This document shows, in pieces, positions 30,145 to 36,925 of a DNA stretch of 42,557 nt (positions are counted from its first letter, which is position 1; each line of letters starts with the position of its first letter). Origin of the DNA: an uncultured Rhodobiaceae bacterium (GTDB taxonomy: Bacteria; Pseudomonadota; Alphaproteobacteria; RS24). A program made the position numbers and the translations under genes. A model generated the notes under the pieces. The model ran no database searches. It was not told the DNA's origin and saw nothing but the letters and a program-made list of their open reading frames with translations. The stretch covers positions 1 through 42,557 of the forward strand of contig CALEFA010000080.1 of NCBI GenBank assembly GCA_937876775.1, in the 5' to 3' direction.

Positions 30145-30324
30145 GCGGCAATAAAGAGGCTTTTCGTCATTGCTTGTGAATGAGTTGGAATTGGGGTGTT
30201 GCAAGCGTCCCTGTGACGTGATATTGCATCAGCCATATTGGTGGAATAGCCTTCTTTTCTGCCATATTGTGAGTTTTTCGTCGAGGTGGGTTTAGCCATC
30301 TCGCCTAGCAAACAGGATAGTCAT
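30145..30324 (+). other. priA-atpH intergenic region
   Basis: This 180-base gap is the longest in the window. It holds a candidate promoter (30199-30227) and a direct repeat GCCATATTG at 30232-30240 and 30261-30269. It also contains the in-frame open extension of atpH back to GTG 30286, which I do not take as the start. No tRNA, small open frame of note or intrinsic terminator for priA was seen. Confidence 0.5.
30199..30227 (+). promoter_or_regulatory. candidate sigma-70 promoter for the atp operon
   Basis: TTGCAA (30199-30204) and TATTGC (30222-30227) are separated by 17 bases. This would give a leader of about 90 bases before the chosen atpH start. The -35 box is four of six and the -10 box three of six to consensus. 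It is the best match in the gap, but experimental start mapping is absent. Confidence 0.38.
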
Positions 30325-30885
30325 TTGTCTTCAAAAGAGAGCATGATTGGTGGCCTAGCCGAACGTTACGCGGTAGCTTTGTTTGAGCTTATGCAGGAAC
30401 TGCCTGCAGACGGTCAGCAACAATTGCATGATGATGTCGCGACCCTGCTGGTCCTCTTGTCTGAAAATGCCGATCTACAAAAATTAATCCGTAGCCCGAT
30501 TATCTCAGCCGATGAGCAAACCGCAGCGCTTGACGCGGTGCTGAAAAAGGCTGGCGCTAGCGCACTATTGCGCAATTTCGTGTCTTTAGTGATTTCCAAA
30601 CGCCGCACATCGGCGCTACCGGACATGGCGCGCCAATATGCGACTTTGGTTGCCGGTTCGCGCGATGAAATGGTGGCCTATGTCACCTCAGCGCATGCGT
30701 TGGCCGATGGTCAAATTGAAGATTTGAAACGACAATTGAAAGATGTATTTGGCAAAACCATTGTGGTTGATGCCAAGCAAGACAGCGCGCTTCTGGGTGG
30801 GTTGATTGTTGAAATTGGCAGCCAAATGATTGATGGCTCGCTGCGAACTAAATTGAATACGTTGAAAACCGCCCTAAACGGGTAA
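30325..30885 (+). CDS. atpH: ATP synthase delta subunit
   Basis: This peripheral-stalk subunit links F1 alpha to subunit b. It has 186 residues from TTG 30325, a typical length. OSCP/delta marks are GLAERYAVALFELMQE near the N-terminus and a C-terminal segment with DSALLGGLIVEIGSQMIDGSLRTKL. Start choice: GTG 30286 gives 199 residues but lacks a usable ribosome binding site; TTG 30325 has AGGA at 30314-30317, seven bases away; ATG 30343 is a further option. atpA follows after 16 bases. The F0 genes atpB, E and F are not here, as is usual in alphaproteobacteria. Confidence 0.93.
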   Translation: MSSKESMIGGLAERYAVALFELMQELPADGQQQLHDDVATLLVLLSENADLQKLIRSPIISADEQTAALDAVLKKAGASALLRNFVSLVISKRRTSALPDMARQYATLVAGSRDEMVAYVTSAHALADGQIEDLKRQLKDVFGKTIVVDAKQDSALLGGLIVEIGSQMIDGSLRTKLNTLKTALNG

Positions 30886-30901: not shown

Positions 30902-32431
30902 ATGGACATTAAAGCTTCCGAAGTTTCTTCCATTTTGAAAGAACAAATTAAGGGATTTGATCAAAAATCTGAGGTATCAGAAATTGGTCAGGTTCTTTCT
31001 GTAGGCGATGGTATCGCGCGGATTTATGGTCTGGACAATGTTCAGGCTGGTGAAATGGTTGAATTCCCCGGTGGTGTGCGCGGTATGGCGTTGAACCTCG
31101 AAGAAGACAATGTTGGTGTCGTGGTTTTCGGTTCTGACCGTGACATTCGCGAAGGTGACACGGTCAAACGTACCGGCGATATTGTGTCGGTGCCGGTTGG
31201 TAAAGAATTGCTTGGTCGTGTGGTTGACGCGCTCGGCAATCCATTGGATGGCAAAGGCCCAATCAACACAGATGTGCGCATGAAAGTGGATGTGAAAGCG
31301 CCGGGTATTATCCCGCGGAAATCAGTTCACGAGCCAATGCAAACTGGTTTGAAAGCGGTTGACGCGCTGATCCCAATTGGTCGCGGTCAACGCGAATTGA
31401 TTATTGGTGACCGCCAAACAGGTAAAACCGCAATTGCTATTGATACGATTTTGAACCAGAAAGCCATCAATGATGGCGATGACGAAAGCGCTAAACTCTA
31501 TTGCGTTTATGTTGCCATTGGTCAAAAGCGCTCAACTGTTGCGCAAATCGTGAAAACGCTGGAAGAAAATGATGCGATGAAATACACCATCATTATCGCC
31601 GCGACCGCTTCTGAAGCGGCACCGCTACAATTCTTGGCGCCATTTACCGGTTGCACCATGGGCGAATATTTCCGCGACAATGGCATGCATGCCTTGATCA
31701 CTTACGATGATTTGTCAAAGCAAGCCGTGTCTTACCGTCAAATGTCATTGTTGCTGCGTCGTCCGCCAGGTCGCGAAGCTTATCCGGGTGATGTGTTCTT
31801 CTTGCACTCACGTTTGTTGGAACGCGCAGCTAAGCTGAATGATGATTTTGGTGCCGGTTCAATGACCGCGCTGCCAATCATTGAAACTCAGGCCAATGAC
31901 GTGTCGGCGTATATTCCGACCAATGTGATTTCGATTACCGATGGTCAGATTTTCTTGGAAACAGATTTGTTCTACCAAGGCATTCGTCCAGCGGTGAACG
32001 TGGGTCTGTCAGTGTCACGTGTGGGTTCAGCCGCTCAAATTAAAGCGATGAAACAGGTTGCCGGTAAAATTAAAGGCGAATTGGCGCAATATCGTGAAAT
32101 GGCTGCGTTTGCTCAGTTCGGTTCCGACCTTGACGCATCAACGCAGCAATTGCTGAAGCGCGGTGAGCGCCTTACGGAATTGCTGAAACAAGGTCAGTTC
32201 TCGCCGCTGAAAGTGGAAGAACAAGTGGTCGTGATTTACGCTGGTGTGAATGGCTATCTCGACAAAATCGAGACGTCAGCCGTTGGCCGTTTCGAGGCTG
32301 GTTTGTTGGAATTAATGCACAGCAAAGAAAGCGCCATTTTGGACGCCATTCGCGCTGAAAAAGCATTGTCAGACACAACTGAAGCCGCTTTGAAAAAAGC
32401 GATTGATGGTTACGCAGCGAGCTTTGAATAG
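30902..32431 (+). CDS. atpA: ATP synthase alpha subunit
   Basis: This regulatory nucleotide-binding subunit of F1 has 509 residues. The P-loop GDRQTGKT (169-176) places Lys175 as in E. coli. Other marks are the N-terminal [11 protein letters not shown], which contacts delta, [19 protein letters not shown] near 245, and the [22 protein letters not shown] segment, here noted in part. The ATG is preceded by GAGGC. It is the second gene of atpHAGDC. Confidence 0.98.
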
Positions 32432-32461: not shown

Positions 32462-33340
32462 ATGGCGTCATTGAAAGAACTTCGCAATCGTATCGCCAGC
32501 GTGCAGGCAACGCAGAAGATTACGCGCGCCATGCAGATGGTGGCGGCATCGAAACTGCGGCGTGCCCAAGAAGCGGCTGAAGCGGCTCGTCCTTACGCTG
32601 ATCGTATGGGTGCGGTTTTGGGCAATCTGGCGGCTGGTATTACTGACCCGCAGGGCGCGCCAAAGCTATTGGCAGGCACGGGAAGCGAGCAGTCATATTT
32701 GCTGATCGTCGCAACCGCAGAACGCGGCCTGTGTGGTGGTTTCAATTCGTCAATTGCTCGTATGGCTCGCGCCGAAGCCTATCGCCTGATGGCAGAAGGC
32801 AAAGACGTCAAAATTCTTTGCGTTGGCCGTAAAGGTTACGACGTGTTGAAGCGTAATTTTACCAAAGAATTATTGCCTCTGATTTCTTATCAAGGCATGA
32901 AAAAAATCGGTTTTGATCAGGCGCAAGAAGTGGCCACGCAAATTCTTGGCGATTTCGAAAATGGCGGCTTTGACATTTGCAAACTCTATTATTCACGTTT
33001 CCAAAATGTGCTGACGCAAGTGCCAACGGCCTTGCAAATCATTCCAGCCCATATCGAAGCGGTTGAGGTCCCAGATTTGGGCGGCGCGGCCTATGATTAT
33101 GAGCCGGAAGAAACGGAAATTCTAGACGCGCTATTGCCGCGCAATATTGCCATTCAGATTTTGCGCGCTCTGCTGGAAAATGCGGCTAGCGAGCAAGGTG
33201 CAAGAATGAGCGCAATGGATAATGCAACCCGCAATGCGGGCGAAATGATTGATGCCCTGTCGATTACCTACAACCGGTCACGTCAGGCACAAATTACCAA
33301 AGAATTGATTGAAATTATTTCCGGTGCGGAAGCACTTTAA
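32462..33340 (+). CDS. atpG: ATP synthase gamma subunit
   Basis: This is the rotor shaft of F1. It has 292 residues. The N-terminal helix [20 protein letters not shown] and a C-terminal helix with [16 protein letters not shown] and [17 protein letters not shown] are diagnostic, since these form the coiled coil inside the alpha3-beta3 ring. [14 protein letters not shown] near residue 88 is also conserved. GGGGG precedes the ATG. No redox-switch insert of chloroplast type is seen. Confidence 0.97.
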
Positions 33341-33350
33341 GACGGATTGA

Positions 33351-34802
<1,452 letters not shown>

Positions 34803-34816
34803 GGAAGTTCTCATCA

Positions 34817-35113
34817 ATGGCCAATAAGCTACAATTTGATCTCGTTTCGCCGGAAAGTCTGGTGCTGTCAGCGCAAGTCGACAGCGTCAGCGTTCCGGGT
34901 CTTGAGGGTGATTTCGGGGTTATGCCAAATCACAGTCCGGTGATGTCTATCATCCGTCCAGGCGTATTGGTGGTCGAGAATGATGGCGTTGTGAGCCAAT
35001 ATCACCTTGATGGCGGTTTTGTAGACGTGACTCCTGAAGGGGTCACGGTTCTGGCTGAGACGATTTTGACCGAGGCGCAAGCGGCTGAACGTGGTGTCGC
35101 TGACGAAGCCTAG
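34817..35113 (+). CDS. atpC: ATP synthase epsilon subunit, short form without C-terminal helices
   Basis: This central-stalk foot subunit has only 98 residues, against roughly 130-140 in most bacteria. The N-terminal beta-sandwich is complete: LQFDLVSPESLVLSAQVDSV, then GLEGDFGVMPNHSP (28-41), IIRPGVLVV, and HLDGGFVDVTPEGVTVLAE. Only a short acidic stretch (EAQAAERGVADEA) follows, so the inhibitory two-helix domain is missing. Convergent purU ends one base downstream, so no lost exon or simple frameshift extension is evident. AAGGAAG precedes the ATG. In alphaproteobacteria the zeta protein can take over ATPase inhibition (established in Paracoccus). Confidence 0.95.
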   Translation: MANKLQFDLVSPESLVLSAQVDSVSVPGLEGDFGVMPNHSPVMSIIRPGVLVVENDGVVSQYHLDGGFVDVTPEGVTVLAETILTEAQAAERGVADEA

Positions 35114-35114
35114 T

Positions 35115-35963
35115 CTAATCAAAAACTACTGTTTTCAAGCCATTTAGCAGCACGCGCCGCTCCGTATAGAGGCGCACAGCGGTGGCTAAAGTGCGGCGTT
35201 CGACATCGCGACCGACATCAATCACTTCCTCGACATTCATATCATGGCGAATGGCTTCAATGCCTTGGCTGATAATCGGCCCTTCGTCGAGATCAGCGGT
35301 CACGAAATGGGCGGTCGCGCCAATCATTTTCACGCCGCGTGCATGGGCGCGGCTATAGGGCTCAGCGCCTTTGAAACTGGGCAGAAAACTATGGTGAATA
35401 TTAATGATTTGGCCGCTATAGGCGGCGGTAATATCGGGCGAGAGAATTTGCATATAGCGGGCCAGAATAATCAATTCGATATTCTCTGCTTCAACCAGTG
35501 ATTTTAATTTAGCCTCGTTCTCAGCTTTTGCCTCTTTTCCACCCGGCCAATAATGATAGGCAATGTCGGCGTTCTCACTCCAGTCGCGGCCAATCTCATG
35601 GTTGGAAGCCACGGCAGCAATGTCCATATGCAGGCTGCCGCGCTGGCAACGGTAAATCAAATCGACCATGCAGTGATCGAACTTGGAAACCAGTATCAGC
35701 GTGCGTGGTTTAATGCTGGCGTCATATAAATGCCATTGCATATGAAACTTGGTCGCGACGGCTTCAAAGGTTGAGCCAAAAATATTCTTACTATCACTGC
35801 CTTGCGCACGAATACCCACGCGCATAAAAAATTTTCCGCTATCGGGATCACCATATTGATGGCTTTCCTCAATATTCATTTTCGCATTGGCCAAGGTTTG
35901 GGAGACGGCGGCAACAATGCCTAAAGCATCAGGACACGATAGGGTTAAAACAAATTTACTCAT
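35115..35963 (-). CDS. purU: formyltetrahydrofolate deformylase
   Basis: It hydrolyses 10-formyltetrahydrofolate to formate and tetrahydrofolate, balancing one-carbon pools. It has 282 residues: an N-terminal ACT domain (about 3-80, LSCPDALGIVAAVSQTLA) and a formyltransferase-like domain with ILARYMQILS, NIHHSFLPSFKGAEPY (catalytic Asn-His), and ATAHFVTADLDEGPII (catalytic Asp). The start is ATG at 35963, not the TTG codon before it, since AGAGAG lies upstream and the ATG overlaps the oxygenase stop (TGATG). Its stop is one base from that of convergent atpC. Confidence 0.95.
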   Translation of the reverse strand: MSKFVLTLSCPDALGIVAAVSQTLANAKMNIEESHQYGDPDSGKFFMRVGIRAQGSDSKNIFGSTFEAVATKFHMQWHLYDASIKPRTLILVSKFDHCMVDLIYRCQRGSLHMDIAAVASNHEIGRDWSENADIAYHYWPGGKEAKAENEAKLKSLVEAENIELIILARYMQILSPDITAAYSGQIINIHHSFLPSFKGAEPYSRAHARGVKMIGATAHFVTADLDEGPIISQGIEAIRHDMNVEEVIDVGRDVERRTLATAVRLYTERRVLLNGLKTVVFD

Positions 35964-36925
35964 CAATCTCTCTTCTGCCGATAGGCAAAGCTCTCTTCAA
36001 TCTTGTGCAATAAATGCGACAAACATGTCGCTGGAGGATAATTGGCTTGATTGCCGGACGCAAGGCAGCCGGGCAGTGGAGATAAATCGGCATCTGGGTC
36101 GGGGTCGAAAAAAAACGCCAGCGAATAGCGCGCTTCGCGGCTTTTATTGATTACCCGATGCTGCGTTGAGGCATAGAGATCATTGCTCCAACGAGCCAGC
36201 ATGTCGCCAATATTAACAACCAATGCCCCATCGAGCACCGGAATGCCCTGCCAGACCCCCTGCTTATTGAGGATCTCCAGACCGGCAATATGGCGTTGCG
36301 CCAGCAGGGTGAGGCAGCCAAAATCTGTATGAGCGCCAGCGCTTAATCCATCATCTGTGCCACTGAGAGGCGGATAATAAAGCGGCCCAAGCGTCGCCAT
36401 GGGCAGGGTCAGCTGGGGCGAAAAATAATCCGCGTCTAAACCCAAAGATAAAGCAAAGCCTTCCATTAATTGCCGACTGACACACTCGCAGGCATCATAA
36501 TAGGCCTGCATGGTCGCCTGCCAACCGGCCAGTTTCGGCCACTGATTGGGCCCATGCAGCGGCACATTGGCTTTCACACGTGGATGCTCTGGGCTCAGGT
36601 CGCGGCCAATTTTCACGCCTTCTTTATAATCGCCCTGCGGTTGACGTTCGGCGTCGAGTACTTCACCACCGATACGAAACCAACCGCGATGACAGGCCGA
36701 GTTTTCGATTGCTATGCTGGCTTTGTCGGCCTGTGGCAGAGCAAAGAAGGCGGCGGATGCGGCAAAGGCTGCTTCGGTTAGGTCTGGGTCAATGGCGTGG
36801 CCAGTGAGATAAAAAAACCCAACGTCGCGGGCGGCGGCGCCAATTTCCTGACCAATAGCTAGGCGTTTGGCCGTTGAAGCGGTGGCGAAATTGCTGAAGT
36901 CGATAAGGGGAAGCGACGCGCTCAT
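35963..36925 (-). CDS. isopenicillin N synthase-like 2-oxoglutarate/Fe(II) oxygenase
   Basis: This non-haem iron oxygenase of the IPNS / plant-type dioxygenase family has 320 residues. The N-terminal DIOX_N part starts PLIDFSNF and has DVGFFYLTGHAID (34-46). The iron ligands are His199 and Asp201 (AHTDFG) and His256 (STQHRVIN). Arg266 with Ser268 (ARYSLAFFF) would bind the 2-oxoglutarate carboxylate, which argues against true isopenicillin N synthase. The substrate is unknown. It is preceded by rppH at a six-base gap and overlaps purU by one base. A demethylation or oxidation that releases a one-carbon unit is a possible link to purU, but this is speculation. Confidence 0.88.
   Translation of the reverse strand: MSASLPLIDFSNFATASTAKRLAIGQEIGAAARDVGFFYLTGHAIDPDLTEAAFAASAAFFALPQADKASIAIENSACHRGWFRIGGEVLDAERQPQGDYKEGVKIGRDLSPEHPRVKANVPLHGPNQWPKLAGWQATMQAYYDACECVSRQLMEGFALSLGLDADYFSPQLTLPMATLGPLYYPPLSGTDDGLSAGAHTDFGCLTLLAQRHIAGLEILNKQGVWQGIPVLDGALVVNIGDMLARWSNDLYASTQHRVINKSREARYSLAFFFDPDPDADLSPLPGCLASGNQANYPPATCLSHLLHKIEESFAYRQKRD

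Follow-up and report, generated by a model that had tools for sequence, protein, structure and literature searches.

The window analysed here, a 42,557-nucleotide stretch of DNA from an uncultured Rhodobiaceae bacterium, carries an atpC gene whose product, the epsilon subunit of the F1FO ATP synthase, keeps only its structural part. Purifying selection maintains the beta-sandwich, the C-terminal two-helix domain is absent from every epsilon found in three genera of the family, and none of the 28 order genomes has a recognisable zeta inhibitor. From these observations we infer that epsilon probably has a structural role in this organism and that the most likely brake on ATP hydrolysis is intrinsic Mg-ADP inhibition, carried over from work on Paracoccus.

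An epsilon subunit reduced to its beta-sandwich

The atpC reading frame in the ORF list of the window starts with ATG, ends with TAG and encodes 98 amino acids. The Pfam family PF02823 covers residues 5-82, aligned to positions 1-79 of its 80-position profile (86.5 bits against a cut-off of 27), and the Pfam search reported no second family on the 98-residue protein. The protein also scores above the cut-off of the epsilon model TIGR01216 (78.0 against 67.25), and its gene lies directly 3' of atpD as the last gene of the atpHAGDC operon, as is expected for epsilon. It is not a two-domain regulatory epsilon, as the C-terminal two-helix domain is absent and the protein ends at residue 98. The Pfam family for that domain, PF00401, matched nothing in the 28 order genomes, not even the full-length epsilons, and so cannot score its loss here.

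Structure prediction using AlphaFold2 (27-sequence alignment) yielded a ten-strand sandwich with block pLDDT values of 84-92, and modelled the tail as a short helix at residues 86-91 with low confidence (mean pLDDT of the last block 60). The solved structures matching this model were epsilon chains and mitochondrial delta chains; among the 50 matches listed, the best target coverage was that of 8yh8_H (TM 0.92 on the target, rmsd 1.1 Å, 85 columns). The earlier note on this DNA had described a protein that stops at residue 98 just after the sandwich, lacks both C-terminal helices and sits among full-length F1 genes. The reading frame and PF02823 bear this out, with the refinement that the sandwich ends near residues 82-85 and is followed by a short tail of 13-16 residues; residues 86-91 are the only helical ones in the model after the sandwich, and delta, alpha, gamma and beta are all full length by Pfam. 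The retained sandwich is expected to go on holding gamma against the c-ring and coupling F1 with FO.

Table 1 Features of the ATP synthase region and the adjoining gene, numbered along the window.
Feature	Position	Strand	Evidence
atpC, epsilon without C-terminal helical domain, 98 aa	34817..35113	+	ORF, Pfam, relatives' loci, AlphaFold2
Beta-sandwich domain PF02823, complete	34829..35062	+	Pfam; AlphaFold2 block pLDDT 84-92; dN/dS 0.013-0.065 within genus
Variable 16-residue tail replacing the two-helix domain	35063..35110	+	Tail versus sandwich divergence within genus
atpD, beta subunit, DELSEED motif present	33372..34802	+	ORF, Pfam
atpG, gamma subunit, full length	32462..33340	+	PF00231 1-285/285
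atpA, alpha subunit, full length	30902..32431	+	Pfam
atpH, delta subunit, full OSCP domain (ORF begins at GTG; a later ATG may be the true start)	30286..30885	+	PF00213 1-172/172
purU, formyltetrahydrofolate deformylase, convergent	35115..35966	-	Formyl transferase domain and sub-threshold ACT match

The FO genes atpI, a, c, b' and b lie together on a separate contig of the same genome (G000:C70), so the synthase is complete. Downstream, a single base separates the stop codons of atpC and purU, the purU ORF ending at 35115. Of 30 loci searched by tblastn with the window's purU, 18 carry the gene just 3' of epsilon: in genus g1, to which the window belongs, 3/3, in g4 2/2, in g5 7/11, in g3 5/5 and in g6 1/1, and in none of the eight loci from other families. 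Four g5 loci (L010, L011, L013 and L015) have no purU match 3' of atpC and carry different sequence there. The earlier note was right that a convergent purU occupies the sequence 3' of atpC. As a cause of the shortening purU was rejected, because purU also adjoins the full-length epsilons of g3 and g6 and therefore does not explain the loss.

Distribution and conservation of the short form

When 61 genomes were searched with the protein, 22 of the 28 belonging to the family yielded an epsilon, and the lengths were then taken from the DNA. No epsilon match was obtained in G003, G009, G011, G015, G018 and G024, five of which are less than 90% complete, with G011 at 90%. All 16 epsilons found in g1 (3/3, that of the window included), g4 (2/2) and g5 (11/11) are short (85-98 aa), and all six found in g3 (5/5) and g6 (1/1) are full length (126-128 aa; the reading of one g3 gene, at 127 aa, misses the first codon). 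The beta subunit was used for a maximum-likelihood tree of 29 rows, drawn with a midpoint root and omitting a g3 row whose locus was cut. In this tree, the 16 short-epsilon genomes form one branch requiring one change, with support of 93/95. The single change was recovered in 92% of 200 bootstrap trees, and none of 500 shuffles scored as low. Epsilon is full length in the sister genera and in the rows from beyond the family, which makes loss the natural polarity. This clade distribution points to a single loss of the two-helix domain, in an ancestor shared by g1, g4 and g5.

Within the genus of the window, the sandwich (codons 1-82) has a dN/dS of 0.013-0.065. Relative to its nearest relative, the window's epsilon shows four differences among the 16 tail residues and one among the 82 of the sandwich, and tail differences between pairs within the genus amounted to 4/16, 10/15 and 11/15 residues. 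The pooled pN of g1 was 0.287 for the tail and 0.044 for the sandwich. The sandwich is therefore constrained and retained, whereas hardly any constraint acts on the divergent tail. Where the C-terminal domain persists, in g3, it too is conserved (dN/dS 0.067), showing that it is not dead weight there, even without zeta; its loss may thus have had consequences.

An assembly error, a frameshift or a recent nonsense mutation is an extremely improbable source of the short atpC. The same short form occurs in 16 genomes from separate assemblies, there is no space for a C-terminal domain ahead of purU, and the sandwich is under strong purifying selection; nothing was found in favour of such an error. 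The comparison of relatives thus upholds the view of the earlier note that the shortening is fixed rather than a recent frameshift, with a short form that is clade-wide in g1, g4 and g5 and forms a single clade on the beta-subunit tree, next to full-length forms in g3 and g6.

To place this loss in the class, we used 241 alphaproteobacterial genomes of at least 90% completeness. Epsilon was found in 236, for all of which open-frame lengths were taken; the residues after the sandwich were measured in 41 of the frames of at most 126 aa outside the family, and 18 or fewer such residues were scored as tail-less. Tail-less epsilon is present in at least 35 of the 236 genomes, from 22 of 132 families, three of these genomes being members of the window's family. 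The count is a minimum, as frames lengthened by upstream codons were left out, and it includes several very diverged epsilons. In nine of the genomes measured, the sandwich is followed by an intermediate tail of 27-42 residues, which was not scored as tail-less (loci L115, L124, L125, L128-L131, L137 and L145); these are possibly half-lost C-terminal domains.

A scan of named genomes retained 80 loci, eight of which encode epsilons of 86-98 aa, seven from the window's family and one other. The latter (L090:3001-3258) is a tail-less 86-aa epsilon from an uncultured alphaproteobacterium apparently outside the family. Viral contigs were scanned as well and yielded no relative. Among the NCBIfam models, NF009983 (PRK13449) describes an epsilon of 88 positions with the same architecture; the window's epsilon matches its positions 1-85 with 96.7 bits, below the cut-off of 106. 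A short epsilon is hence an ordinary, recurrent state, and the modest novelty here is that both known protein brakes are naturally absent in an apparently free-living group. We recognised no literature treating the epsilon of this clade in a search that most subscription journals lie outside, which is not proof of its absence from print.

Zeta and the control of ATP hydrolysis

The earlier note had proposed a zeta-type inhibitor as the replacement for the epsilon tail. Using the zeta profile PF07345 (DUF1476), no match was found in the window's own genome (G000; 1.72 Mb, 100% complete, 80 contigs) even at E ≤ 10, and none at E ≤ 0.001 in the 28 order genomes, in short- and full-length-epsilon genera alike. 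At E ≤ 10, four matches of 11.8-14.6 bits, below the cut-off of 25 bits, were obtained in three of the 28 genomes, all within open frames of 260-1424 aa. Caulobacter vibrioides was positive as a control and zeta was found in 163 of the 241 class genomes, confirming that the model works. The PF07345 gene that marks a Paracoccus-type zeta-inhibited F1 was thus not found in this genome.

Class-wide, zeta was present in 15 of the 35 tail-less genomes and missing from 20, compared with 148 of the 201 others having it (Fisher p = 0.0006, uncorrected for relatedness). Among genomes below 2.5 Mb the counts were 7/27 tail-less against 29/76 others (p = 0.35), and at 2.5 Mb or above they were 8/8 against 119/125. 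Genome size accounts for much of the association between zeta and the tail, and these counts indicate that tail loss is recurrent and uncoupled from having zeta. Seven loci of 2.5-3.5 Mb genomes (L113, L114, L116 and L120-L123; families f13, f59 and f107) combine an 84-89 aa epsilon with a retained zeta, the pattern that the earlier note expected, but in other lineages.

That zeta took over from the regulatory domain of epsilon agrees with the 8/8 among larger genomes, as published for Paracoccus-type enzymes (PMC9317440, in the part available), but with 119 of 125 other genomes of that size also having zeta this figure is background. Zeta is rarer with tail-less epsilon across the class. Within the order none of the 28 genomes has it, not even those of the full-length-epsilon genera, so that the absence of zeta is not tied to the tail. 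The replacement reading is therefore largely refuted, and we consider it very unlikely. The note had further concluded that epsilon does not control hydrolysis here. Inhibition through a C-terminal domain is indeed impossible, but the premise has to be qualified: for Paracoccus, the available parts of two papers describe this domain as having no inhibitory role or just a secondary one (PMC9317440; PMC8039183).

In the mechanism that we propose, the sandwich, retained without the regulatory two-helix domain, would serve as a structural clamp and coupler. The lineage has neither recognisable protein brake of an alphaproteobacterial F1, the epsilon tail or zeta. Upon a fall in proton-motive force, intrinsic Mg-ADP inhibition at the catalytic sites would most likely hold down wasteful ATP hydrolysis. 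The enzyme has the same composition as a Paracoccus double mutant described below, which makes Mg-ADP the best-supported candidate brake.

The genome also encodes a microbial rhodopsin of 266 aa (G000:C23:338-1138, locus L151) with the Schiff-base lysine in its last helix. Its helix C reads RYIDWLITVPLLMVEF, with the pattern RYID..T..E, which we take to be that of proton-pump residues. This rhodopsin suggests a free-living planktonic life. The nearest named records are 'Rhodobiaceae bacterium' MAGs, and a full-length relative is a 'PS1 clade bacterium', from a clade placed by NCBI in Alphaproteobacteria incertae sedis.

Two other accounts of hydrolysis control were weighed against the Mg-ADP brake. 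A novel or strongly diverged protein inhibitor could have taken over F1 regulation in this family, given that the lineage looks free-living yet has neither of the two known alphaproteobacterial inhibitors in recognisable form, and that g3 conserves the C-terminal domain; we saw no candidate inhibitor, the F1 subunits are of ordinary length, and such a regulator is unlikely. The IF1 profile PF04568 was silent in all 28 order genomes and equally in the controls, and carries no weight either way. It is similarly improbable that no hydrolysis control is needed, owing to a steady proton-motive force maintained partly by a light-driven pump, or that reverse rotation is used. The small genome and its rhodopsin point in that direction, as do the rhodopsins in 23 of the 28 order genomes, and this account is compatible with the Mg-ADP explanation. 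However, g3 has rhodopsin in five of six genomes yet kept the tail, so rhodopsin was rejected as the cause of the loss.

Whether Mg-ADP inhibition alone is enough in nature, for the F1FO of a free-living, light-using lineage without any protein brake, we regard as evenly balanced. If true, such a lineage would contradict the published view that zeta is kept in free-living Alphaproteobacteria (PMC9317440 and PMC10469736, in the parts available). The groups that mostly lack zeta, according to the same papers, are the Rickettsiales, Holosporaceae and Acetobacteraceae. If its free-living life is right, the family would be an exception to the loss of zeta following host-bound life.

Comparison with known short epsilons

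What restrains a backward-running ATP synthase is disputed. In the parts of the papers available, zeta is argued to be the main brake and the alphaproteobacterial epsilon to be non-inhibitory (PMC9317440, PMC10469736), and Mg-ADP is put forward instead in PMC8039183. The family analysed here is a natural experiment on this question, comprising genera with full-length and with tail-less epsilon, all without recognisable zeta. Membranes from both types of genus would offer a direct test of the role of the epsilon tail in the absence of zeta.

The closest counterpart is a double mutant of Paracoccus denitrificans in which epsilon is cut after residue 88 and zeta is deleted. According to the available part of PMC8039183, its enzyme assembles without zeta and the epsilon C-terminal domain, ATP synthesis is uncompromised, and hydrolysis is low unless Mg-ADP inhibition is relieved; cutting the domain with zeta present had the same outcome. 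Like this mutant, the lineage of the window has an epsilon ending just past the sandwich and no zeta that could be found. The mutant is made in the laboratory, whereas the natural state is fixed and under selection. In Bacillus subtilis, by comparison, deletion of the C-terminal domain cut ATPase activity by 48% (PMC6692558, in the part available), so the effect of losing the domain differs between enzymes.

The tail-deleted epsilon of Bacillus PS3 F1 (PDB 8YH8) shares the epsilon fold over the 85 columns at 1.1 Å noted above, but is an engineered deletion in the enzyme of another phylum, with 26% identity to the window's epsilon. The naturally short alphaproteobacterial epsilons (NF009983; families f13, f59, f107 and others) likewise consist of the sandwich only, mostly at 77-100 aa. 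They belong to other families and apparently represent separate losses, and those in larger genomes keep zeta, whereas the window's family shows none.
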